Shown one piece after another: positions 11,401 through 46,616 of a DNA stretch of 64,000 nt. A program made the position numbers and the translations under genes. A model generated the notes under the pieces. That model saw nothing but the letters and a program-made list of their open reading frames with translations, had not been told where the DNA came from and did no database searches. This stretch comes from Fragilariopsis cylindrus CCMP1102 (Eukaryota > Bacillariophyta > Bacillariophyceae > Bacillariales > Bacillariaceae). Numbering within the stretch: the first letter of the stretch is position 1; every line of letters starts with the position of its first letter. The DNA lies in assembly GCA_900095095.1 (NCBI GenBank), contig FMBT01000502.1, positions 1 through 64,000 on the forward strand. Reading direction: 5' to 3'.

Positions 11401-14400
11401 ATGTACACCCCAACATTGATGAGATATTGCCGTAAAGAACACGGCAGAAAGCAACCACGACAATCACATGATGACGATGATGACGATGATGACGATCAGC
11501 AGCAAGAACTTCGATCGCATTGTGTTAGAAGAAGTAATTCATTGTTATCACTTATATCGGTGTTACTTGCAGTTGTAGTTATTGGATCAGGTATCTTTTT
11601 TACCAACACCCTTCGTACCAGCGGTGATATTCTTCGTCCAAGTCTTCGTTCGGGTAAAGAAAATGTTCATCCCATGATGATTGATACAACCATTACTAGT
11701 TCTAACAGCAACAACACCGCCACCGCAGAAGCTTTTGTCTTGTCCGTCAAGGATATCTACCAAGAATTATTACAGAAATATACGAAAGTTGTCAATGTCA
11801 GCGTCCATGAATATGAATATGAATATGACGGTTTCTATCTTGATAGCAACTACAGGAAGGACAATATGTTAGAACGCGAACTAAAAAGTTCAAAGAGCAG
11901 CAAGAGCAGCAAGAGCAGCAAGAGCAGTGAGATCAGCAAGAGCAGCAAGAGCAGCAAGAGCGGTAAGAGCAAGATAAAACGTCCAGTAATGAAACGCCCA
12001 GTAACGAAACGCCCAGTAACGAAACGTCCAACTAATACACCTACACCATTCGATACATTAGATATTGCAAGTGTTGATGGTCTTGCTGGACCACCTACTC
12101 AAAAGAGGACAAAAAAAAAGTTAATAGATGATCTTACAGGAGTAACAAAACGAATTTTAGGTATTGATGATGGTCAATCCCCCAATAGTGCTTTACAATC
12201 ACCCAATCCCTTTGAAGATTGTTCTGTGAATGTTGTTGTACCAAGAACAACCAATTGTATAAATGTATATCCTGATGGTATTCCTATACCTGTAACTACA
12301 TGTTATGAATATACGATTAGTATCTCAGATTATGGTGGATCTTGTAATGTAAATGACGCAAATGAATTAGTTACAGCAGAAATATTATTTGAGGAATATA
12401 CAGATGATCTTGCTTTTGTTGTTATATTAAGACCATCATCTGTACCAACATCTCATCCTAGCATACTAAGAGAGCCATCCAATCAACCAACATATCAAGA
12501 TCGTGGTAAATGTAAAAATTCACAGTTATTTCGTTTTGAAGGAAACCCCTTAAGGACATGTGATACGTATGTTGCAAAAAACCCATCAAGAGATGTGTAA
12601 AGCTGCAACCTGGTACCGGAAAGAAAGTTAGATTCTTTTGTCCATCAACATGCAACAAAAAGTGCAAGAATACCGACTCACCAACATCATCACCAACCGT
12701 TTTACGTGGTCCATGTGAAAATTCGGATTCATTTGGATTTGATGGCAATCCCTCAAGGACATGTGATACGTATGTTGCAAAGAAACCCATCAAGAGATGT
12801 GTAAAGCTGCAACCTGGTACCGGAAAGAAAGTTAAATTCTTTTGTCCATCAACATGCAACACAAAGTGTAAGACTACTGATTCACCAACATCATCACCAA
12901 CCGTCTTACGTGGTCCATGTGAAAATTCGGATTCATTTGGATTTGGAGGGAATTCCTCAAGGACATGCGATGCATACGTAGCTGAAAAGCCCACCAAGAG
13001 ATGTGCAAAGACACAACCTGGTACCAAACAAAAAGTCAAATTCTTTTGTCCCGCATTATGTACACGTAGATGCAAGAATACGAATTCCCCAACACTCTCA
13101 TCCTCTGTTACTCCTACAACATTAGCCTCTGATTCTCCATCCACAAGTTCAAGTGATACACCGTCCGCTTCACCACGTGATTTACCATCTTTTTTGCCAA
13201 CGCCATCACCCACTGTTTCCGCAAGCTCAGAACCCAGCTCTATTGCCGGTGGTGTTCCTAATTTTGAAATGAGTGCTATCCCCAGTTCTGTTCCGAGTGG
13301 TATTCCTAGTATGGAGCCAAGTTTGATTCCAAGTGCTACTCCTAGTATAGAGCTCACCGCATTACCGAGTGAGTCAATGAGCCCAACAAGTACGGAGCCA
13401 AGTTTGTTTCCAAGTGTTGCTCCGAGTTTAGAGCCAAGTGGGTTACCCAGCTCTATTCCAAATGGTGCTCCTAGCACCGCACCAAGTGTTGATCCGAGTT
13501 CTATCTCCAGTACATCATCTGCTCCAAGCGGAGCACCAAGGGTTAGCTCAAACCCGACTGGTGGGTCAAGTCTCAGTTCAGCTCCTAGTCGGTCGTCTGT
13601 TCAAAGTGGTGCGCCAAGTTTAAGCGCTAATCCTAGTCTTAGCTCTGCTCCAAACATATCTTCTGCTCCGAGTGTTATACCAAGTCATAGCTCAGTTCCG
13701 AGTGGTAACCCAAGTCTCAGTACTGCCCCAAGTACTGGTCCTATTTCTAGTATAAAGCCAAGTGAATCACCAAGTAAAAATCCCAGCTCTGGACGAACTT
13801 TACTGCCGAGTGCTGCATCCAGTTTCATCCCAAGTCTTTATCCGAGTACTGTCCCAAGCCTTGCTCAAAGTGATGATCCGAGTACTATTCCTAGCCTTGC
13901 TCCAAGTAATGATCCGAGTACTATTCCTAGCTCCAAGCCCAGCCTCGATCCAATCAGCGCTTTGATCTCTATCCCAAGTACTGTCCCAAGTACTGGTCCT
14001 AGTTCTAGTATAAAGCCAAGTGAATCACCAAGTAAAAATCCCAGCTCAGAACCAACTTTACTGCCGAGTGCTGCACCCAGTTTCAACCCAAGTTTTTATC
14101 TGAGTACTGTCCAAAGCCTTGTTCAAAGTGATGATCCGAGTACTATTCCTAGCCTTGCTCCAAGTAATGATCCGAGTACTATTCCTAGCTCCAAGCCCAG
14201 CCTCGATCCAATCAGCGCTTTGATCTCTATCCCAAGTACTGTCCCAAGTACTGGTCCTAGGTCAAGTTCAAAGCCAAGTGAATTTGAAAGTAAAAATCCC
14301 AGCTCAGAACCAACTTTACTGCCGAGTGCTGCAAGCACTGCCCCTAGCCTTGCTCCCAGTAAGGTTCCTACTTCGGATCCTAGTGCGGATCCAATCGCAG

Positions 14401-17400
14401 CACCAAGTGTTGATCCGAGTGCCTCTCCTAGCTCTGCTCCAAGTCTGGATCTGAGCGGCGCACCAAGTTATGTCCCAAGTTATGTCCCAAGTGCCATTCC
14501 AAGTACTGCTCCTAATTCCAGACCGAGTATCGAGCCCAGTCTTTCAACAAGTTCTCTTCCGAGTTCTGCTCCTAGTCTTTCATTTAGCTCTGATCCGAGT
14601 GGTGCACCAAGTTCCGTTCCTAGTCTTCTACCTAGCTCTAATCCGAGTAGTGCACCGAGTTCTGTCCCTAGTTTGGAACCCAACTCCATTCCAAGTTCCA
14701 TTCCGAGTGCTAATCTGAGCGGGGAGCCAAGTAATTTGCCCAGCTCTCTTCCAAGTGTAGTTCCAAGTGGTGGTCCTAGTTCTGATCCGAGCGGTCTTCC
14801 AAGTGGTAGTCCTAGTTCTGCTCCAAATTTTGACCCCAGTTATGCTCCAAGTCTTGACCCAAGCACAAGTCCCAGTCTTTCACCAAGTAGCTTGCCCAGT
14901 TTGGAACCAAGCTTATTGCCGAGTGCTGCACCAATTTCCATCCCAAGTCTTGATCCGAGCGCTGCCCCCAGCCTTGCTCCAAGTGGTGTTCCTAGCTCCA
15001 CTCCTAGTGTTGAGCCAAGTTCCATCCCTAGTCCCATCGCTAGTTCTTCGCCCAGTAGTCTACCCACCTTAAGTAATGCACCAACCACAAGTGCTGCACC
15101 TAGTTCTGTACCAACCAAAACTGCGGAACCAAGTGACAGTCTTGCACCCAGTTCCCTTCCAAGTCTTTCACCAAGCGCTACTCCTAGTTCCCTTCCAAGT
15201 CTTTCACCGAGTGCTGCTCCTAGTTCCCTTCACAGTCTTTCACCGAGTGCTACTCCTAGCTCTATCCCTAGTCTCGATCCGAGTGGAGCTCCGAGTCATG
15301 TCCCCAGTTCGAAACCGAGTTCAGTGCCTAGTGTTGTACCAAGTTCATTGCCAAGTCTTTTGCCGAGTATGGTACCAAGTTTTGTCCCGAGTTCGAAACC
15401 AAGTTCATTGCCTAGTACTGTACCTAGTTCTATTCCAAGTCAAATACCAAGTCTTTTGCCAAGTATGGTACCTAGCTCTATTCCTAGTCTTGATCCGAGC
15501 GGCGCACCAAGTTTTGTTCCGAGTTCAAAACCAAGTTCATTCCCTAGTGCTGTATTAAGTCAAAAGCCAAGTCTTGCACCAAGTATGGTACCAAGTGTTG
15601 TCTCAAGCTCAAAACCAAGCTCCCTACCTAATGCTGTTCCAAGTCAAAAGCCAAGTCTTTTGCCGAGTATGGTACCTAGCTCTATTCCTAGCTCTATTCC
15701 TAGCTCTGCTTCTAGCTCTGCTCCTAGCTTTGATCCGAGTGTTGCACCAAGTGCAACTCCTAGTTTGTCGGTCAGTGCTGCTCCCAGTATTTTATCAAGT
15801 TTCAGTCCAAGTCTTGCACCAAGTGGTGTTCCTAGCTTCACTGCTAGTGTTCATCCTAGCGGCGCACCTAGCTCCGTCCCCAGTTTGGCACCAAGTTCTT
15901 CGCCCAGTAGTCTACCAACCTTAAGTAATGCACCCACCACTAGTGCTGCACCTAGTTTTGAACCTACTGCAACTGCGGAACCAAGTGACAGTCTTGCACC
16001 CAATTCTCTTCCAAGTCTTTCACCAAGTGCTGCTCCTAGTTCCCTTCCAAGTCTTTCACTGAGTGCCGCTCCTAGTTCCATTCCGAGTTTTGTGCCAAGT
16101 GATGTTCCTAGCTCTGTTCCTAGTCTTGAGCCAAGTGGAGCTCCAAGTTCTGTCCCAAGTTCGAAACCAAGTTCATTGCCTAGTGCTGTATTGAGTCAAA
16201 AGCCTAGTCTTGCACCAAGTATGGTACCAAGTGTTGTCCCAAGCTCAAAACCAAGCTCCCTACCTAATGATGTTCCAAGTCAAAAGCCAAGTCTTTTGCC
16301 GAGTATGGTACCTAGTTCTATTCCTATCTCTGCTTCTAGCTCTTCTCCTAGCTTTGATCCGAATGGTCCCAGTGAGGTTCCTAGTTCAGATCCAGGTACA
16401 GCTCCAAGCGTTGATCCGATTAGCACTTTGATCTCTGTTCCAAGTACTACCCCAAGTACTACCCCAAGTACCGATCCTAGTTCAAGTTTAAAGCCAAGTA
16501 AATCACCAAGTAGGATTCCCAGCTCGGAACCAAGTTTATTGCCGAGTGCTGCACCCAGTTTCATCCCAACTCTTTATCCTAGTACTGTCCCTACCTTTGC
16601 TCCCAATGAGGTCCCTAGTTTAGATCCAAGTACAGCTCCAAGCGTTGATCCAAGTACTGCTCCTAGCTTCGACCCAACCGGCGCTCCGAGCTCTGTCCCA
16701 AGTACTGCTCCTAGTCTCAGAGCGAGCTTTATACCTAGCCTGTCACCAAGTTCTGTTCCTAGTTTCGAACCTAGCTTTTATCCAAGTAGTGCCCCAAGCT
16801 CTCTCCCTAGTGTGAGACCCAGCTCGATTCCTAGTTCCTTTCCTAGTCTCAATCCGAGCTTGAATCCGAGTGGGAAGCCTAGTGTTTTGCCAAGCTCAAA
16901 ACCCAGCTCTATTCCAAGTGGTGTTCCTAGTTTTGAACCAAGTGCTATCCCCAGTTTTATTCCAACTGCTATTCCAAGTATGGAGCCCAGTTTGTTTCCA
17001 AGTTCTGCTCCTAGTTTTGAGCCCACCGGATTACCTAGTGAGTCAATGAGTAGCTTGCCCAGTTTAGATCCAAGTCTTTCACCAAGTACGGAGCCAAGTT
17101 TGTTTCCAAGTGTTGCTCCGAGTTTAGAGCCAAGTGGGTTACCCAGCTCTATTCCAAGTGATGTGCCTAGCACCACACCGAGTGTTGATCCGAGTTCTAT
17201 CCCAAGTACAATTCCAAGCGGAGCGCCTAGTTGGGGAACTCGCCCAGTGACAGATACATTAATTACGACCAAAACGGCGAATGATAATGCGGTATCGGTA
17301 TGTTTCGTAGAATCCCTAAATTCTGCGACTGCAACAGCTCTTGCAACAGTGAGTACATCATCGCTTGATGTATCAACGGGAATAGCAGATGCTTCAGCAG

Positions 17401-17702
17401 AAACACGAGCAGTGTCTGAATCTGGAACAATAACAGCGACATCGACATCGACCGCAACAGTAACAGTTACCGGAAAACCGTCAGGAATAGCGCGTGCAAC
17501 AGCAACAGCAAAATCGACTGCTATAGCATATGGACCACCGAATGTTGAGGTATGTGCAGAAGTGACTGTAACTGCAACTGCAACAGCAACTGCAGCACCT
17601 TTGAGTTTTACAGACACAGATACTGATACCAAAAAAGTGTGTGCAAATGGATTCGCAACAGCTACATTAGAGCTTACAATAACTATCGATACTAGTTTGT
17701 AA
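11401..17702 (+). CDS. giant membrane-anchored Cys-rich / Pro-Ser repeat protein
   Basis: The first part (11401-12600) has an Asp run, one signal-anchor segment (LLSLISVLLAVVVIGSGIFF, about residues 48-67), SKSSKS repeats, an RPVTKRP basic stretch and a Cys-rich region. It ends in a TAA only because the first of three Cys modules lacks one base near 12578-12590; the second copy at about 12776 shows the intact text (KKPIKRCVKLQPG). The second frame is then open to 17702. The modules (about 60 residues, six Cys, ending FFCPSTC..KC) are followed by about 1,300 residues of xPSxxPS repeats and a Thr/Ala/Val-rich C-terminus with a few Cys. Such proteins are common in diatoms and are thought to be cell-wall or frustule associated. 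No enzyme domain. Internal 258-bp (86-residue) direct repeats begin at about 13751, 14009 and 14268. Confidence 0.75.
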
Positions 17703-23634: not shown

Positions 23635-25268
23635 AAACGGGAATAACAAAATCCCAAAACAAGATGAAGAAGAAGAAGAAAGAGTGACGACAGTGGCGGA
23701 TGGAAAAAAAATTGCAATGTTGGATTGAAGACGATAAAATCCTTCTTTCAATAAATACAGTACTACAGTATCAACAATATTGTCTCAGGCGATGATCATT
23801 CCACTTAAGGTGCGCGAGTAAAAGCACACACACTGTACATACGTCGATGTTGGACTTTCCGATGGTTGATGCTTTATTATTTGTAAAATGTATCTTGTTG
23901 GTCCTTTTCTTTTTGTTTTCTTTTTTCTAATTTGAATTTAAAAATGTCATATATTTTACTGTACGTTTGCTAGCATAGCTGGTACTGTAGTGTTCTTTAT
24001 TTTTCGCAAAAGCTTGGTAGTTGTTTCAAATCTTCTCTTTCCTAAGTATTTCGCGTTTACCAGTTTTATTAGCGCATTCTTTTTCGGAAAAAAAACTATT
24101 ATTTTTTTATTAGATTCTTCACCCTTTGGCATTCCTATATTCTTCTTTTAATTACTCCTTTTTCGCAAAAAAAAACTTTCAAATCTTCTCTTTCCTAAGT
24201 ATTTTGCGCTTACCAGTTTTACTATCGCATTCTTTTTCGGAAAAAAGCTGTTGTTTTTTAATTAGATTGCTCACCCTCTGTCATTCCTATTCTTCTATTA
24301 ATTACTCCTTTTTCGCGTACGACGATCATAAAAAGTTGGATTGAAAATGATAAAACCCTTCTTTCAATAAAGACTACAAACAGTGTCTCAGGCGATTCTT
24401 CCACTTAAGGTGCGCAAGTAAAATTCACTGTACGACGATCATAATAAATATTATGAAACAAGAAGAAACAAAAGAAATGAGAGAGTAAACTTTACTTAAA
24501 GCACACACTGCTGTACGACGATCATAATAATAAAATGAGCGAGTAAAATTTACTTAAAGCACTCACTGTACGACGATCATAATAATAAATATTTAATATA
24601 TTATGAAACAAGAAGAAACAAAAGAAATGAGCGAGTAAACTTTACTTAAAGCACGCACTGTACGAAGATCATAATTTCTTCGAGTCGTGCGCCATAGTCC
24701 ACTCACATACCATCTTCTCGTAGATGGTTTAAAAGGAACACATTCAATGTGAAAGTTTGCTACCCACATGGCAAAAAAAAAATGGGAATTGTGAAAGATT
24801 GGATTTGTCACCCGGTTCATTGTGTTATCGAGAAACGAATGCAAGACTCTACTACTGTACAAACTCGAATAAAAAGGGGGAACAGAACGAAGGGGGAATA
24901 CAGGTTTATTTCTACTACGGAAGGAACTGGATTCGAACTACAGTACTTTACTGTACAGTTTATATATTAATTACGTAGTAGGGGAGAAAGCAAATTCCAA
25001 AGAAAATCGACTCAACCCACCAATCAATAACTGATACACATACAAGGTACTGTATCTGCAGGCCACCATTGATTTTCTTAGGTTTTTCGCGGTGTTGCTT
25101 AAGATTTTTTGTTTAGCCATCAATTATTAATTTTATTTTACAACTATAATGAACAAACATACACACCATAAAACATACTGTAACTGGATCGATTCGATAG
25201 CGATCAGAAAAAAATGGCAAACGTCAACAAGTGATATAATAAGTTAAACAAACAAACAACAGCTAAAA
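23635..25268. repeat. repeat-rich intergenic region
   Basis: No gene seen. Segment 23725-23850 recurs at 24335-24440 (shared CCTTCTTTCAATAAA, TGTCTCAGGCGAT, CCACTTAAGGTGCGC). Module B/C of the 22.5-kb repeat lies at about 23865-24130 and 24160-24320. From about 24405 to 24680 a unit with TTTACTTAAAGCAC and TGTACGACGATCATAAT is repeated about four times in tandem. Segmental duplication of the 3' flank of the 23089 gene is the simplest reading. Confidence 0.6.
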
Positions 25269-28200
25269 ATGGATGCTACTAGTAGTAACGAATACGCCCA
25301 TCATGACGACGACGAAGAAGAAGAAGCACAAGATCAAGCACAAATAAATCAAGCACAAATAAATCAAGTACATCATGACGAAGATGCTCAGGACGAAGAA
25401 ATTACAACTACTACTGCATCATCACAACTACCAGTAAAAAAATCTGGAAATCAAAAAACGAAGAACGCTGAAACTGAAACTCATAATCAGGCTGCTTGTG
25501 CTACTGATGCTAATGCTAATGCTAATACTAATACTAATACTGATGCTAAATGTAAATATGGTATAATATTATTTTATAAATATCATCCATTATCTGATTG
25601 TCGTACAAAAATTGAATTATTTCAAATTGCACTCCAAGAATTATGTGTATCACTGGAATTGAAAGGTCGGATCCTGATCGGATGTTCGAAATATCAATCC
25701 GAAGGTATTAATGGTACATTATCCGGATCAATAAACAATTTAAAAATATTTGTCAATGCCTTTACGAGTACTACTACTGCAATAATAGAAAAAGAAAAAG
25801 ATGACGACGAAATTACCACACAACTACTGTCTTTAGAAAAAGAAGAAGAAGAAGAAGAAGCTACACCAAACTATAATAGAACGAAAAAAGAGGAGAAGAA
25901 AGTAGAAGTAATAGTAACTAACGACGACGACGATGATATAGCAAACGTCGTTGCTATAGCTGCTTTAAGAAAATTTCATCAGGATTGTAATGAATTTTAT
26001 CGTATAGCAGATTGTCCCTATCCATTAACAATGACAAAATCAGAATTTAAATGGAGTCATATAGACAAGAAACAACAACAGTCGTCGAGTGATGAGAAGT
26101 CATCACAATCATCACAACCACACAATTTATTTCCTGATTTAAATATTAAGATTGTGAAGGAATTAATTGGTACGGGGGGTGTATTATCGAAGATACCATT
26201 AACCGAATTACAGAAAGGATATTTAACACCAAAAGAATGGCATGAACGTTTAATCAAATTAGAAAAAGATACAAATAATGCATCAAAGAAGAACAACGAG
26301 GATTCAACTGATAATAATGATACAGTATTAATTGATTGTAGAAATACAAAAGAACATGCTATTGGTAATTTTGGTGCAACAGCAATTAATCCAAATACAA
26401 CCACCTTTAATCAATTTCCAAAATGGGTTCATGATAATCAACATAAACTGAAAGGGAAAAATGTTTTGATGTATTGTACGGGGGGTATACGATGTGAAAA
26501 AGCATCGGCTTATATAAGAAATACTCTCAAGGGTGATAATGGTGTGAAAGATGTTCATCATTTACAAGGTGGTATACATAAATATATAGAACAATATCCT
26601 GCAGGTCCAAATAGTGGTGGTAGTGGTCCGAATAGTAGTGGTAGTGGTCGAAACGATAGCGGTAGCGGTGGCAACAATAACAATAACAGTAACGACAACG
26701 ACAGCAATCCTTCACCGTCATCATCATCATCATTATGGAGAGGAAAGAATTTTGTTTTTGATGGTCGTGGTAGTAGTAGTAGTAGTAGTAGTAGTGCACA
26801 TATCGGTAGTGCACATAATGGTAGTGGTTTAGGTGATGGTGATCGTGGTGGAACAACAACAACAACAACAACAACATTGGAACCATCGAACGATAACAAT
26901 AACGACAATAACAAGAATTGTGTTGTTGGAGAATGTCGATATTGTAATTCATTCTATGATACATTTGATCCACATTGTATCTGTACTGTTTGTCGTGAAC
27001 CAATATTAATTTGTATTAATTGTCAGCAGCAGACACAGGCAGAACGAGGTATTGGTGTAGGTGTAGGTGTAGTAGTGTTATTCAATAATACTAATACTAA
27101 TGAATATCATTGTAAAACACATCAACATTTAGAAACATGTTATTATACAAATTTACATCAATTTTCAATACAAGAATTAACAAAACAATTAAATGAACTT
27201 GGTATAATTGGTATTGATATTGCGGTTGGTAAAAAATATAAAAGAAAACGTAAAACATTAACAAATCAATGTCTAAAAATACAAACACGGATAAAAGAAT
27301 TATTACTATTGGAAGGTAGTAGTGCTGAGAACAGTGGCAGTAGTGGCAGTAGTGCTAAGAACAGTAGTGGTGTTGGCTTGAAATGTCGTAATTGTGAACA
27401 ATTGGATTGTTCTGGTAAATGTTGGGGATTTCATAGTTTAAAAAGAAAACGTGTATTAGATGAACAACAACAACAGCAACAAAAACACGAAAAGGTGGTA
27501 CTAGACCACGAAAAATTCAAGAACATGATTCAAAAGGCTACTCGTCAAAATCAAAATGAAATTTTGAAACAAGATAAACAAATTAAAAAACAAAAACATA
27601 TCAAGGATTTAATTCAATTAGGATTGATATTACAAGGTCCAGAAATTGGACGTGATCCTAACACAGGATTACGGACACCAAAACCTTGTCTAAGAATTAT
27701 ACAAACCACCACCAAAGGGAAATGGTGTGGAGTATCATTATTAAAAGTATTACAACAAGAATTTTTTAATAACAGTACTAATAGTGGTAGTGGTAGTGGT
27801 AAAGGTTGTGGTGAAAATAATAATAATGACAATGATATTGATAATGATATAGTATTACGTCAATTATTAACCAATGGTTTAATACGTGTGAATGGTATAG
27901 CAATTGCAAGAACATTTGATGAGGCAAATGACTATAAGTTAAAAAATATGGATATAATTGATCGAATAATCCATTGGCATGAACCACCAATTTTCTTACC
28001 ATCCTTACAAATTGATGTTCAAAAAATTAGAGTACCAAAAGAATTACTCCTAAGAAGTAACAGCATTAGTAACAAAAAGAAGAAAAAGAAGAGGAAAAGG
28101 AAGAAAAACAACAACAACAACAACAACAACAGTAATGATGAGGATATTGATGATACTCTTCCTACAGCTGTCGATGATAGAACTCTTGTTGATGTCGATA

Positions 28201-29723
28201 ATGACACTGACATTGATAGTAAAAATGATAATTTTCTATATGTTTGTAATAAACCATGTACTGTTCCCGTACATCCAACTGGACCATATTTATCCAATAC
28301 ATTAACAATGTTAGTGGAAGGTCAAAACGATCTTAATTTAAAACCAATGACATTGATACCATGTCATAGAATTGATCGTGTGACATCTGGTATGGTAATT
28401 TGTTCTACGAATAAACAAATTGTATCATTAATTTCACAAGCAATGAGTAGTAATACTGCTACAAGTACTATTACTACTGCAAATACTGCAAATACTAGTA
28501 CTAGTAATGGTTGCAACAACCACAATGGCAGAAGTAGTAGTTATGTTCGTAAGCAATACTTAGCGAAAGTAATTGGTAAATTTCCATCACACAACGAACG
28601 TGTAATAAGTAGTAGTGGATGCTCTGCTTTACCTATTTTATCCTCGTCCCCCGCCGACGGCGGCGGCAGCAGTGCCACATCCGCCTCCCGTAATGATGGC
28701 AACGATGATGATCATACTACTACTAGTATCGCGCAATGGGAATGGATTATTGATAGAAATGATGGCAATGATGGCAATAATGATAACGAAAATGATACCG
28801 TCATGGTCGACAATAATAAGATATATGATTCTTTTTCTTCGTCTTTATCATCATCATTATTGTATAATGTTGCAACATCAGACAATGCTACTACAACCAC
28901 TACAACGACAACAAAGACAATGAATAATAATAATAATAATAATACTAATATGACATTAAAAGTGAATGGACCAATTGAAACAATTGATCCTGCAAATGGT
29001 ATACGATCCATTACATCCAACGGTAAACCATCCATAAGTTTATTTCGTTTATTGAATTATGATTCAATAAGTAATACATCTATAATTATTTGTGAACCCA
29101 AAACAGGTAGGAGTCATCAATTACGTGTCCATCTTCAATGGTTAGGTCATTCAATTTGTGGTGATATATTATATGGTGGTGATGGTAGTGATAGTGGTGG
29201 TGACAGTGGAGCTGCTGGTTTTGGTTTTTGTGGTTGTAGTATTACAAAACTTATTGATGATCCGAATGCTGGTATCAATCGTCTATTAGATAGTATTAAT
29301 GATGATGATGATGATGCTAATGGTAATAGTGCTAATACTAATAGTACGTCAACAACGTTGTGTAGTGGTGAAATTACCCAAAAACAAGCACATGCCGCAA
29401 AGGAGGTTTGTCCAACATGTAGCGGAATTCATAATAGTAGTAGTAGTAATAATATTAATAGTAGTGAAGAAGGTCGTCGAGATGATGGAGATGGTGTAAG
29501 AAATGGAAAAGGAACAGGACATCCATCTACATCGTTTACTTCAGCTCAATTATTACAAGGTGGACATGCTATATGTTTACACGCATTTTGCTATAGTCTT
29601 GTGTTTCCGAATACTATTACTAGTACTACCGCTGCTGCTACTGCTTCGTCGTCGTCATCGTCGTTCAAAATTGATCTAAAGGTAGACCTGCCACCATGGG
29701 CATCCCATCTAAGAAACAAATAA
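25269..29723 (+). CDS. TrhO-type tRNA uridine hydroxylase fused to RluA-type pseudouridine synthase
   Basis: An uninterrupted 1,484-residue frame. Residues about 95-170 and 240-265 are the UPF0176/TrhO N-terminal domain (FYKYHPL, EGINGTLSG). The rhodanese domain (about 345-440) has VLIDCRNTKEHAIGNF and active-site loop CTGGIRCEKAS with Cys403; TrhO uses it for O2-dependent hydroxylation of tRNA U34. Two Cys clusters follow (about 555-640 and 705-725, zinc-binding in appearance, as in TSTD2-like proteins), then an S4-like segment (about 865-895). The RluA domain starts near 985 (VCNKPCTVPVHPTG), with catalytic HRIDRVTSG (Asp1036) and GRSHQLRVHLQWLGH..GDILYG. Long Asn, Ser, Gly and Lys inserts separate the domains. 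Joining two tRNA-modifying activities fits a tRNA maturation role. No clear targeting peptide. Confidence 0.85.
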   Translation: MDATSSNEYAHHDDDEEEEAQDQAQINQAQINQVHHDEDAQDEEITTTTASSQLPVKKSGNQKTKNAETETHNQAACATDANANANTNTNTDAKCKYGIILFYKYHPLSDCRTKIELFQIALQELCVSLELKGRILIGCSKYQSEGINGTLSGSINNLKIFVNAFTSTTTAIIEKEKDDDEITTQLLSLEKEEEEEEATPNYNRTKKEEKKVEVIVTNDDDDDIANVVAIAALRKFHQDCNEFYRIADCPYPLTMTKSEFKWSHIDKKQQQSSSDEKSSQSSQPHNLFPDLNIKIVKELIGTGGVLSKIPLTELQKGYLTPKEWHERLIKLEKDTNNASKKNNEDSTDNNDTVLIDCRNTKEHAIGNFGATAINPNTTTFNQFPKWVHDNQHKLKGKNVLMYCTGGIRCEKASAYIRNTLKGDNGVKDVHHLQGGIHKYIEQYPAGPNSGGSGPNSSGSGRNDSGSGGNNNNNSNDNDSNPSPSSSSSLWRGKNFVFDGRGSSSSSSSSAHIGSAHNGSGLGDGDRGGTTTTTTTTLEPSNDNNNDNNKNCVVGECRYCNSFYDTFDPHCICTVCREPILICINCQQQTQAERGIGVGVGVVVLFNNTNTNEYHCKTHQHLETCYYTNLHQFSIQELTKQLNELGIIGIDIAVGKKYKRKRKTLTNQCLKIQTRIKELLLLEGSSAENSGSSGSSAKNSSGVGLKCRNCEQLDCSGKCWGFHSLKRKRVLDEQQQQQQKHEKVVLDHEKFKNMIQKATRQNQNEILKQDKQIKKQKHIKDLIQLGLILQGPEIGRDPNTGLRTPKPCLRIIQTTTKGKWCGVSLLKVLQQEFFNNSTNSGSGSGKGCGENNNNDNDIDNDIVLRQLLTNGLIRVNGIAIARTFDEANDYKLKNMDIIDRIIHWHEPPIFLPSLQIDVQKIRVPKELLLRSNSISNKKKKKKRKRKKNNNNNNNNSNDEDIDDTLPTAVDDRTLVDVDNDTDIDSKNDNFLYVCNKPCTVPVHPTGPYLSNTLTMLVEGQNDLNLKPMTLIPCHRIDRVTSGMVICSTNKQIVSLISQAMSSNTATSTITTANTANTSTSNGCNNHNGRSSSYVRKQYLAKVIGKFPSHNERVISSSGCSALPILSSSPADGGGSSATSASRNDGNDDDHTTTSIAQWEWIIDRNDGNDGNNDNENDTVMVDNNKIYDSFSSSLSSSLLYNVATSDNATTTTTTTTKTMNNNNNNNTNMTLKVNGPIETIDPANGIRSITSNGKPSISLFRLLNYDSISNTSIIICEPKTGRSHQLRVHLQWLGHSICGDILYGGDGSDSGGDSGAAGFGFCGCSITKLIDDPNAGINRLLDSINDDDDDANGNSANTNSTSTTLCSGEITQKQAHAAKEVCPTCSGIHNSSSSNNINSSEEGRRDDGDGVRNGKGTGHPSTSFTSAQLLQGGHAICLHAFCYSLVFPNTITSTTAAATASSSSSSFKIDLKVDLPPWASHLRNK

Positions 29724-41092: not shown

Positions 41093-44000
41093 ATGAAGTT
41101 GTTTGGAACAACAGTAAGAAGACGAAGACGACAACGAGCATCATCGTCCTCGTCATCGTTACCTGTTACTACAATGATGATCAGTGGCATGAGTGTAGTT
41201 AGTGTGAGTTTAGTACTACTGGTAATGATGACAATAGTCTTCCAACGAACGTCCGTCGTCGTGACTGCGGCAGCAGCAGTCACAGTCGAAGACGTATCGT
41301 CATCTTTGAAACATGAACAAATAGTTATGCCAGATAATGATGGACCAACAGCAGCAGGCGTAGAACCAAATAAAATTGAAGATGAAGAGGAAGAGGAAGA
41401 GGATGAAGATGAAATTAATCCGCATGTACGTGTTATGATGTGGTTAGAAAATCGTGCATTGTATGCAGAAAATAATTTTTATAGGAATTCATGGGAAAAT
41501 TATAAAGACGAAGATGAAGATGAAAATGATGATGGAGAAGAATATCAATATCTGAATGGATATTTCTTTTCCCATCAAAATTTAAAATTAGATATACCGG
41601 TAATATCTTCTTCACCACGAATTGTTGCAAGACAAGATATACCAAAAGGTACATTATTAGTAAGTGTACCATCCAATACATTTTTATATAAAACGAATGA
41701 TGAAAGTAAACGTTCGAATCAACAATTACATCCATGTGATGTTGTTACTACAATTATAGATCCAGAAGAAACATCATCTACTCCTCCTTCACCTGGTAAT
41801 TTGAATTTTGTACAACCATTTATAGATTCAATATTAAAATTATATGAGACTGAAACTGATACTGAAACTAAGGACAAAGATGAAGGCGGCGAGACCGAGA
41901 CTTTCGACGAGCACCAAAAAATTCTATGGTCTGATAAACAAATTGATATATTATCTAAAATTTTAGGGAATGAATTAGAACCAAAATCAAATACATTAGG
42001 ATTGTTTCTTCGGTCCAATAAGTCCAACAATAACAACAATGAAACAACAACTACAACTACAACTACATTATGTGAAACTCCTATTAGTGGTGATCAACAA
42101 CAACAACAGATGAAGAAGAAATATCATTATTCATACAATCCAACGAAACATCCAATAAAAAAATTAAATCTATTTAAGAATGCATTACATGCTGTTATAA
42201 CAAAAGGATGGAATTCTCGTATGGTACCAATATATCACTGGATACCACGAAGTAGTGGAAAAAGTAATAGTGATCAGAATAATAAAACAAAAACAACAAC
42301 ATTATTAGTAGCAAATGTACATCATTCTGTGATAGAAATTGATGAATCCACAATGTATGATTCTGTTATAGAAGAACGTGAATCAATATCAAACGTCAAA
42401 CAGAATCATTATCAAAAATGGGAAATTATATATAGAACCATGGGTGGATCCAACAGCCTATCAATTGCATTCCTCACGTCTTATAAAAAAAGGTGAAATT
42501 TTAGTATTACCATATCATTCAATAGCACAACAATTTGTATCAACTGGTACGGGTAGTACTGGTACTGGTACTGGTACTGCTGTTACTGAATCTGAATCTG
42601 AATCTACTCCAATACGATTTTGGATACAAACATTACATGATCAAACTGGTAGTGATATTAAATATGATAGTAATAGATTAGATCCATATGAATCATTCTT
42701 ATCATGGGATTATTATCCAGCTACTGGGACCGGTAGCACTGGTACTGGTACTGGTAGTAGTGCTAGTAGTACTAGTAGTCGTATTGTTTGGATTGATAAT
42801 TATACTGAAAAACCAGTTTTTGATCAAGAACAAAAACAAATACTACTACGTGATACACAAAGAAATATATTACATTCGCAATATATGAGATTACGTCAAA
42901 TGGAAAATGAAATTCAACAACAATTATTATTATCTACAAATGATAATGATGCTGATGATGATGATGATGATGATGATGCTGCCGATAATCGTGCAATATA
43001 TGAATATTATCAATCATGGACAGATTCGTTAGGACTAGTATTAGCGCATTCACGTCCACAAAGAAATAATGGACTATCGTCTAGTAGTAGTACTACAACA
43101 ACTACAACATGCAGTAACAACAATGACAATAACAATGAAGAAACGTGTTCTACTAATGATGATGATGATGATGATGAAATGTCTACTACATTGTATTCAC
43201 TATCACTGCCCTCAGCACGGTATGATAATTTAAAAGTACGTCATAATGGGGATGGTATGAATTATAATGGTGTAACACTCGCACATGATTGTACACATCA
43301 ATTTGAACAGACCATATATGAAGAAACTAGTACACCCTATGCTAAACTTGAATGGACGAGATCGTATATCGGTGGTGGTAGGTTAATCAATGATGAAAGC
43401 GCCGGCGGCGAGGACAATGGTGGCATCAATGATGATGATGATGATGATGAACGTGAACAAGATACGTGCTTGCATTTAAATGGTGTCCTACATTCATGTT
43501 TAGCATTTCGACCACATGTTCATGAAACATTAATACATTATCCAGCAAGTTTTTTACCTAAGGATAGTCTAAAAAGAGTTTTATTTGTTGGTGGTGGTGA
43601 TCTTGTTATATTACATGAAATTTTACGTTACCCATCTGTGGAACTAGGTAAGTACGGTTAACAGATTTTTGATACTTCATTATTTGATTGATTCTCCTTC
43701 ATTTTTTTTTCAAAAGCTTCTCACACTACGAATACGCGGTTTAAAAAAAATTCTACAGTAATCGGGATGGAATTAGGTAAGCGGTGAAACAGATTTTTTG
43801 ATACTCCTATTTGATTGATTCTCCTTCATTTGTTTTTAAAAGCTCACACTAAGAATGCGTTACTATTTGATTGATACGAACGATGATCAAAAGATCAAAC
43901 TGTTTTACGTTCGTCTTTAGACATTATGGAATACAACCAAAATTTGAAGATGAACGTGTACATTGGTGGTTCGGGGATGGATCTAAAAGTTTAACGATGC

Positions 44001-46616
44001 TCCCACCGGAAGAATATTTTGGTACATTCGATTTAGTCTTGATCGATCTCGTTTGTGAAATTTTTGATTCCCTTCGAGTCGGTGATCATAATGAACGATT
44101 GGTCGATTATATGATGAAATTACTCAAACCGGAAGGAATATTGGTCCGTCAGGAGGATTGGGCGGAACACAATGTTGTTGATTTTGCAAAGCATACAGTC
44201 GATTTGAATGTATTCGGCATGCCACATTCATGTTCACAATTCTTTACGATGGGTAGTAATGGAATTGATTTTGCGAATCATGAACGTGTCGATCATGGAT
44301 TAGAAGATTTAATATGGTACGAACCAAACGTTGATGATAACAATCATACTTTGGTATGGGGAAATTATCGTAACAACCTGGATCCACCTGACCGGATTTG
44401 TCTACAAGATGATGATCGCGAGGACAGCATTACGGACGAGTTTTTCACGGAAAACAAAACTCGAGCAGCGACGAATAATGATGCATCACGTTCAAGTGTT
44501 GGAATCTTTGTAGCTATTGAGGCGGAAAACGTAACTATTGATCTCGATGACGATTCATTGGTAGTAACTACCGTGAAGAAAGCATTGGATGAAATCGGAT
44601 TCGTCGATACTAAGCTGAATGTCAATTCGCTCAATTCAACGTTCAATTCTTTTGTCTTCATTTTTGAGGAAGGGTACTTAGCGATGCGGACGTGGTCGGA
44701 AGATAAATATTGTTTAATGGATCTTCAGCTATGGAATACCATCGCGAATCATGAACGTGCTGTTTCGAAACTAGTTACAGCTGTCGGTGGAAATGTCGAA
44801 GCGGGTTCTACGTCGTCCTTTCTCATAACTACCGGAGGTATGTTTGGTATCCGTAATAATCTTCACGACAACGAACGTTCCAATGAGATCATCCCTTCGT
44901 CGTGGTGTGGTCAAGACGACTCCGACAATGAAAGTAGCGACAAAATAGTTGATGGTTATTCGATTGAATCGACTCTGTCACAACTGCAAGGACTTGATAT
45001 CGTTCTCAGCGAGATGCTGTCAAGTTTTTTCACCAAGATCGATCCCACCGTGATAGTGTTATGTCCAGATAAATCATCTCCGTGCAGATCCTTCGACGAC
45101 GTAGATTACGGACAGGCGCAGGTCATCCCGCTGTATGCATGTCCTGATATTATCGATGGTGATGATTCTACTTTGGGTCGGTGTGAACAGGAGATAATGC
45201 AAAATATCCGTGACATGCTATCCTTGTCAAAAAGTGCAGAGAAGATTGAAGCAATGGTCATCGATTCCGAAACTCCACGGGAATTGGGGCAGATAGTTAA
45301 TAGAATTTTTGTTAATGGTGCATCAAGTTTCCAATGGTTGTCTCATGATTATGTTGTGCTGGTACCATCACCCGCTACGGGTCCTTTGGACAAGAATCAC
45401 GATACTTCATGGAGATATCAATTCCTAGAACGCTTTCGAACGGATGCTATTGAATTCAATCCAGTATATCATGCCACTATCGCCTTCACCGCTCTTTCTT
45501 CGAGCAGCAGCAAGTGGAATATTGGCGTGCTGCGGACTGGTAATTCTTGGTTTTACGATCAGCTTATCGAATCAATGAATAAGATCCGACGCACAGTGGA
45601 TTTCGAGGATGTTTCCCTTCTTGAGTCAAAAACTGGAGTTATCTCTCATATTCCTGACTATCAACCAAGCAAGTGGGCAACCCCATCCGATTACGATATT
45701 CAACCTGCTACCAATCAATGGTCGGAACAACGTCCACTTGGACGACAACTCCTTGCACAATACGAGAAATTACCAACACTTCCTGATGATATTTCTGTAG
45801 GTGCGGATGTTATTATTTATCGTGAGCTCTATGACGATTGGTGCATAGTAAGTACTTGCGTTGAAATATTGACCCCTTCCTTTTATGATTTGTTGTATGT
45901 TGCTAGACTGTGAAACTAACTGTGTGTGTGTGTTTTTCTTTTCGATAGGGTTCCGTATACGATATCTGGGAAGAGACAGAAGATGAACTGCAGTATACGG
46001 TTCGTTGTGCTGGGAGAGAGGCATCGTTTCAAGACGTAGGACGAGATTTACTTGCCGAGCTGGATGACGACATTCAAACAACAAATATAATTCCTTTTGG
46101 TTCTACTGTCATTGCAGATGGTGAAGAAAAGTGGCTCTTCGTATCTGGTACGAAGCACAAATAATTGGAATGAATGATGAGGGGAAATATAAAGTATATT
46201 ATCTCGGTAGTGGAGAGATTTCTTTTCTCGATCGAAGGCAGGTCATCCAGAGTCCAAGTACCTACTTGTCATCATTACCGACATACGTCAAAGCATTTAC
46301 CACGTGCGCTGATTTCGAACAATTTTTGTTAGATAATAAGATTCTTCCTAACGGAGTAGATAATAATATATCCAACCAAAAAGTTGGTGATGGCTGCATC
46401 GTACTAACATCTTTTTCCTCTACTAAAAGAGAAGGTGGTGATATCACTACGATTATAGTTACGTACGATGGAAGGAAACACATTGATCTGAATGTCTACT
46501 CACCAGAGAATGCATCATCTGTGAATAATATCGCAAATGAACTAGCCCTACGGGATGATATTCCAGGCTTTATGCGAATCCAGAATGATTCCCACCCACG
46601 CGGATATGGTAGGTAG
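41093..46616 (+). CDS. anchor + SET-like + aminopropyltransferase-like + dead AdoMetDC-like + Tudor-like protein
   Basis: Starts MKLFGTTVRRRRRQR with one membrane segment (about 30-50). A SET-like region follows (RIVARQDIPKGTLLVSVP near 41615; RLIKKGEILVLPYHS near 42480). A spermidine-synthase-like domain has CLHLNGVLHS, the SAM loop VLFVGGGDLVILHEIL, VIGMELDQTV and VHWWFGDGSKSL; the usual DxxD catalytic pair is changed to IDLVCE. From about 44490 an AdoMet-decarboxylase-like fold reads SVGIFVAIEAE and GYLAMRTWSE; the pyruvoyl Ser and catalytic His of the family are Gly and Arg. The tail (YEAQIIGMNDEGKYKVYYLG) is Tudor/Agenet-like. Introns: 43648-43758, 43777-43893, 45850-45949. One-base frame shifts near 42412, 43917 and 46142. 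Polyamine pathway origin is clear; present function is unknown, possibly polyamine or SAM sensing. Confidence 0.7.
43648..43893 (+). other. twin introns flanking an 18-nt microexon
   Basis: Intron A is 43648-43758 (GTAAGTACGG to TCTACAG) and intron B is 43777-43893 (GTAAGCGGTG to TCAAAAG). The 18-nt exon 43759-43776 supplies VIGMEL in phase, reading SVEL|VIGMEL|DQTV, which matches the acidic ribose-binding strand of SAM-dependent aminopropyltransferases. The two introns share their first about 90 bases almost word for word (ACAGATTTTTGATACT, TATTTGATTGATTCTCC, TTCATTT, AAAAGCT, CACACTA, GAAT, GCG). Confidence 0.8.

Follow-up and report, generated by a model that had tools for sequence, protein, structure and literature searches.

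A Fragilariopsis cylindrus gene family joining SET-like, aminopropyltransferase and AdoMet decarboxylase-like domains, with the decarboxylase catalytic residues replaced

We analysed a gene at 41093-46616 (+) in the first 64,000 nucleotides of contig FMBT01000502.1 (the window, on a contig labelled C587 in this analysis) from the diatom Fragilariopsis cylindrus CCMP1102 (assembly GCA_900095095.1). Sequence comparison across the searched 67.9 Mb genome showed the gene to be one of a family of eight, whose predicted proteins combine a hydrophobic N-terminus, a SET-like part, an aminopropyltransferase (APT) domain, an S-adenosylmethionine (SAM) decarboxylase (AdoMetDC)-like domain without catalytic residues and a Cys-bearing tail. 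According to the alignments, the dead AdoMetDC is a trait of the family and not peculiar to the window copy. Because the same replacements occur in all or nearly all eight genes, a kept non-catalytic role seems more likely than chance decay. The parts of the window gene are as follows:

41186..41242 (+), hydrophobic segment, residues 32-50, after an Arg-rich N-terminus (Kyte-Doolittle mean 2.43 over 19 residues)
41600..42540 (+), SET-like region (MAFFT alignment with six sister proteins)
43518..44311 (+), APT (Spermine_synth) domain in three exons (Pfam, family alignments, PDB profile search)
44492..44860 (+), AdoMetDC-like domain without catalytic residues (Pfam AdoMet_dc at 44540-44788, NCBIfam, PDB profile search)
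44672..44674 (+), Gly codon in the column of the pyruvoyl-forming Ser63 (alignments)
44687..44689 (+), Arg codon in the His68 column (alignments)
44732..44734 (+), Trp codon in the Cys83 column (alignments)
44942..45790 (+), tail domain of unknown kind, ~280 residues (alignment A5)
45949..46255 (+), weak Tudor/Agenet-like part (Pfam Agenet 0.012 and TUDOR 0.036, both below cut-off)
46300..46616 (+), C-terminal domain, IGDG...WDGR.HIDVN...D..PRG (conserved in all eight genes, alignment A3)

The AdoMetDC-like domain and its replaced catalytic positions

The original prediction, made from the window alone, held that this protein has GYLAMRTWSE where class 1b AdoMetDC has SHLSIHTWPE. We located this stretch at 44672-44701, and the alignment with solved AdoMetDCs (ESHISIHTWPE...DVYTC corresponding to EGYIAARIFPE...DVQLW) likewise placed Gly at the pyruvoyl-forming Ser and Arg at the catalytic His. 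The catalytic Cys column had been read as Trp or Asn; by the same alignment it is Trp and not Asn. Within the family, Ser63 is Gly and Cys83 is Trp in 8/8 genes, His68 is Arg in 7/8 (Leu in C307), and further invariant residues surround the three replaced positions. The AdoMetDC part does lack the Ser that would form the pyruvoyl cofactor, and the derivation of the domains from polyamine-pathway enzymes also stands.

Several profile searches pointed to the identity of the domain. Pfam AdoMet_dc matched the window protein at 1.4e-04 and 22.6 bits (cut-off 25) and reached 26.0 bits, above the cut-off, in a six-frame search of the genome, which found three of the eight family members (the window gene, C253a and C767). 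The NCBIfam model SAM_DCase_Bsu gave 1e-4 and 22.6 bits, far under its cut-off of 75.65. Among the sister genes, Pfam AdoMet_dc was over cut-off in C767 (1.2e-06) and gave 4.8e-04 to 5.5e-03 in C253a, C253b, C351 and C531. When a profile of all eight domains was searched against PDB, four class 1b AdoMetDCs came first (E 0.0047-0.042) and the next match stood at 0.49. We regard the match of the family domain to class 1b AdoMetDC as weak but consistent.

The same genome contains seven strong AdoMet_dc matches (62-85 bits; C679/C262 and C90/C597 are near-identical pairs), and all seven keep the catalytic Ser, His and Cys. An APT match follows each of them, so these are AdoMetDC-first genes; in the three whose downstream part was scanned, Pfam SET appeared in C265 (1.4e-05, over cut-off) and weakly in C99 (0.015), while the C679 piece had none. 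Two kinds of gene thus occur in the genome: AdoMetDC-first, with the catalytic residues, and SET-first, lacking them.

Two further APT genes, on C171 and C47 (L055 and L056), have an N-terminal domain reading GRGHISLTLWPYQKKLMADFFIG. They could possibly be a second, separate loss of AdoMetDC chemistry before an APT, for which support is weak: this N-domain had no Pfam AdoMet_dc match and scored 3.9 bits against the active-domain profile.

Eight genes with a common domain order

A protein search with the 658-residue exon of the window gene gave 10 matches in total, including the window itself and two split genes, and placed relatives in seven other genes: C531, C351, the neighbours C253a and C253b, C307, C767 and C500. 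The APT is followed by the AdoMetDC-like domain in 7/7 of these sisters. A SET-like part precedes the APT in 6/7, and in C767 the sequence upstream reads N.

AdoMetDC, APT and SET were found united in one gene in C253a and in the family. In C253a, most of SET, the APT, the AdoMetDC and the tail lie within one 1202-codon frame (Pfam Spermine_synth 5.2e-20, SET 2.7e-04, AdoMet_dc 5.6e-04); therefore, to the extent that DNA can tell, a single gene holds the domains. The predicted single-gene fusion was accordingly borne out for the most part in its order; in the window itself several frames are needed to read it.

Outside the genome, tblastn found no relatives in the collections of viral contigs and genome contigs. 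Among plasmids it returned five records with a query coverage of 11-17% each; four carry a speE annotation.

The APT domain

On the two sides of the introns, Pfam Spermine_synth matched the window at 9.1e-07 and 1.3e-03. In PDB, an APT profile made from four of the eight members, without a canonical enzyme, found spermidine synthases as best matches (1.1e-15); we used this result and not that with alignment A4, which was inflated by an included canonical diatom spermidine synthase. The motif pattern GGGD...IDLVCE is present as had been described, with the SAM loop GGGD kept and the DxxD pair altered, and it is only the second Asp of the pair that is lost. The window APT also retains ELD and GDG, and it has lost the second half of GGGDGG. 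All four SAM-site acidic residues (D104, E124, D155 and D173) are kept in the window, and most sisters keep them too; the numbers and roles of these residues we take to be those of human spermidine synthase. At the equivalent of Tyr79, 6/8 family APTs have Tyr; the exceptions are the window (Val) and C500 (His).

In an APT tree, which was small and left out C351, the SET-first APTs split from the AdoMetDC-first APTs plus the canonical enzyme with local support 1.000. The window APT had a branch of 0.47. Those of C500 (0.87), C307 (0.65) and C767 (0.51) were longer, and the remaining three were shorter. At otherwise invariant APT columns the window departed in 3/41, and the other six scored 0-9 (leave-one-out). 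Given these departures and a branch shorter than three of the other six, the window APT does not appear to be plainly decaying. In the AdoMetDC domain, counted in the same way, the window departed at 2/13 columns and the others at 0-4.

The SET-like region

The SET-like region was weaker in the window than had been stated, since Pfam SET alone gave E=0.16 (residues 177-272); it is the alignment with the sister genes that backs it. Pfam SET was over cut-off in C253b (4.2e-08), C500 (9.9e-07) and C351 (6.6e-05), just below it in C253a and under it in C531 (0.034), and there was no match in the scanned piece of C307. The window reads PRSSG for the sisters' NHRNG and GEILVLPYH for GEQIYxSYN; the sisters keep NHRNG in 4/6 and SYN in 5/6. 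Losses in the SET part are therefore greater in the window copy than in most of its sisters. A phmmer search of a sister SET domain against PDB found nothing up to E 0.01. By its motifs alone, the SET part is presumably of the LSMT/SETD type.

The genome also holds SET relatives with no APT match, on C27/C558 and C599. The one on C27 (L058, with an equal-scoring match on C558) has 378 codons, a Pfam SET match of 1.6e-09, a signal-like start and an HDEL end; the C599 relative ends in DGDEL. HDEL-type C-terminal ends are ER (endoplasmic reticulum)-retention signals, and the C27 protein is likely an ER-lumenal methyltransferase.

The N-terminus, the tail and the C-terminal domain

A membrane anchor had been proposed at the N-terminus. 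The hydrophobic 19-mer is there at residues 32-50, and a signal anchor and a signal peptide both fit it. A similar 19-mer was present in the five sister N-termini examined (of seven; Kyte-Doolittle 2.17-2.86). Between the AdoMetDC and the Tudor-like part, four Cys of the tail are invariant in the seven sequences compared. Hydrophobic N-termini together with these four Cys would be fitting for a lumenal protein. Against PDB, the tail domain had a sole match up to E 1, at 0.39. The Tudor-like assignment of the tail has weak Pfam matches behind it, neither of which reaches the cut-off.

The WDGR.HIDVN C-terminus had been suspected by eye to be a second AdoMetDC-like domain. We rejected this, as hhalign against the AdoMetDC family gave a probability of 1.1% and a PDB search up to E 10 returned no match.

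Gene model and frame breaks

Open frames make up the gene, and each segment shows a coding codon signal in a single frame. The longest open frame has 680 codons, compared with at most 184 in 300 shuffles of its DNA. Our model contains three GT-AG introns, an 18-nt exon, a frame change at 42378-42435 and -1 breaks near 43917 and 46128:

41093..42377 (+), exon 1 of the model: N-terminal anchor or signal, acidic linker and SET-like start (open frame, codon signal)
42378..42435 (+), 58-nt GT-AG intron, or a -1 frame break in the A run 42414-42418 (frame change)
43648..43758 (+), intron GTAAGT...CAG (gene model)
43759..43776 (+), 18-nt micro-exon completing VELVIGMELD (reading frame, sister sequences)
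43777..43893 (+), intron GTAAGC...AAG (gene model)
43916..43918 (+), -1 frame break at TTT, between DQTVLRSS and RHYGIQP (gene model)
45848..45948 (+), intron GTAAGT...TAG (gene model)

The introns and the 18-nt exon restore the APT as ...RYPSVEL-VIGMELDQTVLRSS... The introns at 43648-43758 and 43777-43893 share a 34-nt repeat of 94% identity (copies at 43681-43714 and 43808-43841), and the micro-exon sits between the two copies.

The second -1 break, at AAAA 46127-46130, falls inside the Tudor/Agenet-like part, and the breaks of the window gene are located in short homopolymers. On visual inspection of overlapping frames, three sister genes (C531, C253b and C307) showed similar breaks. Successive matches lying in different frames were also present at HSP70 loci C693 and C70 (overlaps of 11 and 8 bases) and at silicon-transporter loci C600, C639 and C77 (overlaps of 7, 193 and 55 bases). 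Because breaks occur in sisters, HSP70 and silicon-transporter genes alike, assembly indels are the simpler reading of those in the window gene. A second copy of the gene, which could settle the frame breaks, was sought and not found.

Elsewhere in the window, a 1491-codon frame at 25248-29720 (+) unites UPF0176_N, rhodanese and RNA pseudouridine synthase domains, and a 1712-codon frame at 12564-17699 (+) carries PT-type disordered repeats. A chlorophyll-binding antenna gene lies directly downstream of the gene described here; with the silicon-transporter matches of the genome, it marks the DNA as that of a diatom.

Comparison with known systems

The description behind diatom AdoMetDC-APT(-SET) fusions is reportedly that of Michael 2011 (FEBS Lett 585:2627), to judge from the papers that cite it. 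In the accessible parts of those papers, fusions of AdoMetDC and APT in diatoms, some of them carrying a histone N-methyltransferase domain, are proposed to make or methylate long-chain polyamines (PMC3820600, PMC12029483), and a further paper also names them as possible long-chain polyamine makers (PMC6356823). In Nitzschia inconspicua, 32 APT-containing fusion proteins were counted as likely involved in long-chain polyamines, and the available text lists such diatom fusions as needing study (2025; PMC12803844). Compared with the Michael 2011 fusions, as these papers portray them, the present family has the same domain types in one gene, in a diatom, with many paralogues and a proposed role in long-chain polyamines. 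It differs in the order SET-APT-AdoMetDC where those have AdoMetDC first (a form that also occurs elsewhere in this genome), in the loss of the catalytic triad in 8/8 genes and in its Cys-bearing tail. In the accessible portions of the literature searched, which takes in Michael 2011 and Nemoto et al. 2020 through citing papers and not through their own texts, we found no description of the SET-APT-dead-AdoMetDC order; we do not claim its novelty in print.

With class 1b AdoMetDC (SpeD; PDB 2iii, 1tlu) the family domain shares a profile match over ~60-90 residues and differs in having Gly, Arg and Trp for Ser63, His68 and Cys83. With spermidine synthase the APT shares Pfam and PDB profile matches, the SAM-site acids and the first DxxD Asp, whereas the second DxxD Asp and the second half of GGGDGG are lost and Tyr79 is Val in the window.

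Human spermine synthase is without a SET part, a hydrophobic N-terminus and a tail. What it has in common with this family is an APT fused to a catalytically dead AdoMetDC-derived domain, and sections of two papers describe that N-domain as serving dimerization (PMC12803844, PMC11203672). In animal spermine synthase more generally, the AdoMetDC activity is stated there to be lost and the domain to be still required as a dimer part (PMC12803844).

Diatom-specific SET methyltransferases have been tied to wall formation, according to passages citing Nemoto et al. 2020 (PMC11554505, PMC11151724). Compared by description, those and ours are both diatom SET proteins, and SET relatives free of an APT exist here as well; in the present family, however, SET is fused to an APT and a dead AdoMetDC.

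Discussion

The original prediction took the whole protein to be non-enzymatic. This holds for the AdoMetDC, but it goes too far for the rest, where the SAM-site acids of the APT are kept and the SET motifs and APT tyrosine are retained by most sisters, the window copy being one that has lost both. We infer that the gene is a variant of the diatom AdoMetDC-APT polyamine machinery, with the AdoMetDC as a non-catalytic module. The model that we favour, at a little below an even chance, is a lumenal silica-amine pathway in which the dead AdoMetDC is a module of the APT and the window copy a partner. The family proteins would reside in the ER or the secretory lumen and act there on amines for the silica wall, which may be long-chain polyamines in free form or the lysines of silaffins. 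Their decarboxylated SAM would be supplied by the AdoMetDC-first proteins of the same genome, in which the catalytic residues are kept. The dead AdoMetDC domain would serve the APT as a module for structure or dimer formation, on the pattern of human spermine synthase. The window copy, with its degraded SET motifs and no APT tyrosine, would be a partner or scaffold of active sisters and not an enzyme itself. We suggest a lumenal setting because of the hydrophobic N-termini, the invariant tail Cys and the signal-like start and HDEL end of the C27 protein. As to a silica setting, the genome has 27 silicon-transporter matches. In a narrower and unlikely version, the family would belong to the still missing machinery of the ER lumen by which N-methylated polyamine chains are built on the lysines of silaffins: SET would methylate, the APT would add aminopropyl to protein-bound amines, the dead AdoMetDC would dock or dimerize and the window protein would be a pseudoenzyme subunit paired with active sisters.

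A number of observations weigh against the model that we favour. Pfam AdoMet_dc gave C307 just 0.066 and had no match in C500. When the eight dead domains were compared with three active ones, hhalign gave only 36% probability (E 3.7e-4). Against a four-sequence profile built from the active domains of this genome, the window domain reached only 3.9 bits and its best shuffle 1.7. A single-sequence AlphaFold prediction of the AdoMetDC part, made with no alignment, had a mean pLDDT (predicted local distance difference test) of 35.9 and was uninformative. In human spermine synthase the AdoMetDC part precedes the APT, whereas here it follows. No standard DxxD was present in the seven APTs aligned across that stretch; therefore even the sisters may not be aminopropyltransferases. 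Finally, the frame breaks leave room for a pseudogene, and at otherwise invariant columns the window departed in 2/10 of the C-terminal domain, the highest of the eight (others 0-1), and in 3/12 of the tail, tied for the most (others 0-3).

These last points bear on the idea, to which we give a rather low probability, that the window holds a pseudogene, or a gene in decay, within an otherwise functional family. Its two or three -1 frame breaks, its lost SET motifs and APT tyrosine and its C-terminal departures speak for decay. However, breaks also occur in C531, C253b, C307, two HSP70 loci and three silicon-transporter loci, for which assembly indels are simpler; moreover, there is codon signal in every segment, and the APT departures at invariant columns are not unusual. 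The missing DxxD touches on a different and quite improbable idea, namely that the APT, SET and AdoMetDC parts are non-catalytic scaffolds throughout the family, for example lumenal adaptors that would bind silaffins or polyamines without modifying them. No aligned member has a standard DxxD or GGGDGG, which agrees with this, and a fungal membrane protein with an APT-like domain yielded no spermidine or spermine on expression, although the authors, in the part of the paper concerned, allow for expression problems (PMC12803844). Yet most sisters keep the SET motifs, 6/7 keep the APT tyrosine and the SAM-site acidic residues are mostly kept in the sisters, which would be unexpected for a pure scaffold.

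Another reading of the AdoMetDC-like domain is that it would sense a ligand or act as an allosteric regulator in the manner of a prozyme; by binding SAM, decarboxylated SAM or a polyamine, it would tune the APT, the active AdoMetDC proteins or the SET part. The replacements are set and not random (Gly 8/8, Arg 7/8, Trp 8/8, with invariant residues around them), and the trypanosomatid AdoMetDC prozyme is a precedent: a dead relative, encoded by a separate gene and of another AdoMetDC class, that regulates an active partner. Both cases have kept a dead AdoMetDC relative, but the prozyme is separate, of the eukaryotic class and paired with an active AdoMetDC, whereas the present domain resembles class 1b and forms part of an APT fusion. 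Human spermine synthase and the diatom AdoMetDC-APT(-SET) fusions offer closer precedents, and nothing found in this analysis supports a SAM or polyamine sensor or a prozyme. We consider a regulator of this kind rather unlikely.

To our knowledge, the making and attachment of the silica-shaping polyamines of diatoms are still an open matter. The eight lumenal-looking genes described here, which have lost the AdoMetDC chemistry alike and of which seven have a readable SET-like part, are named candidates, and in the genome the suppliers of decarboxylated SAM are clearly set apart from its possible users. The family would also be a further example, next to animal spermine synthase, in which a dead AdoMetDC has been retained in fusion with an APT.

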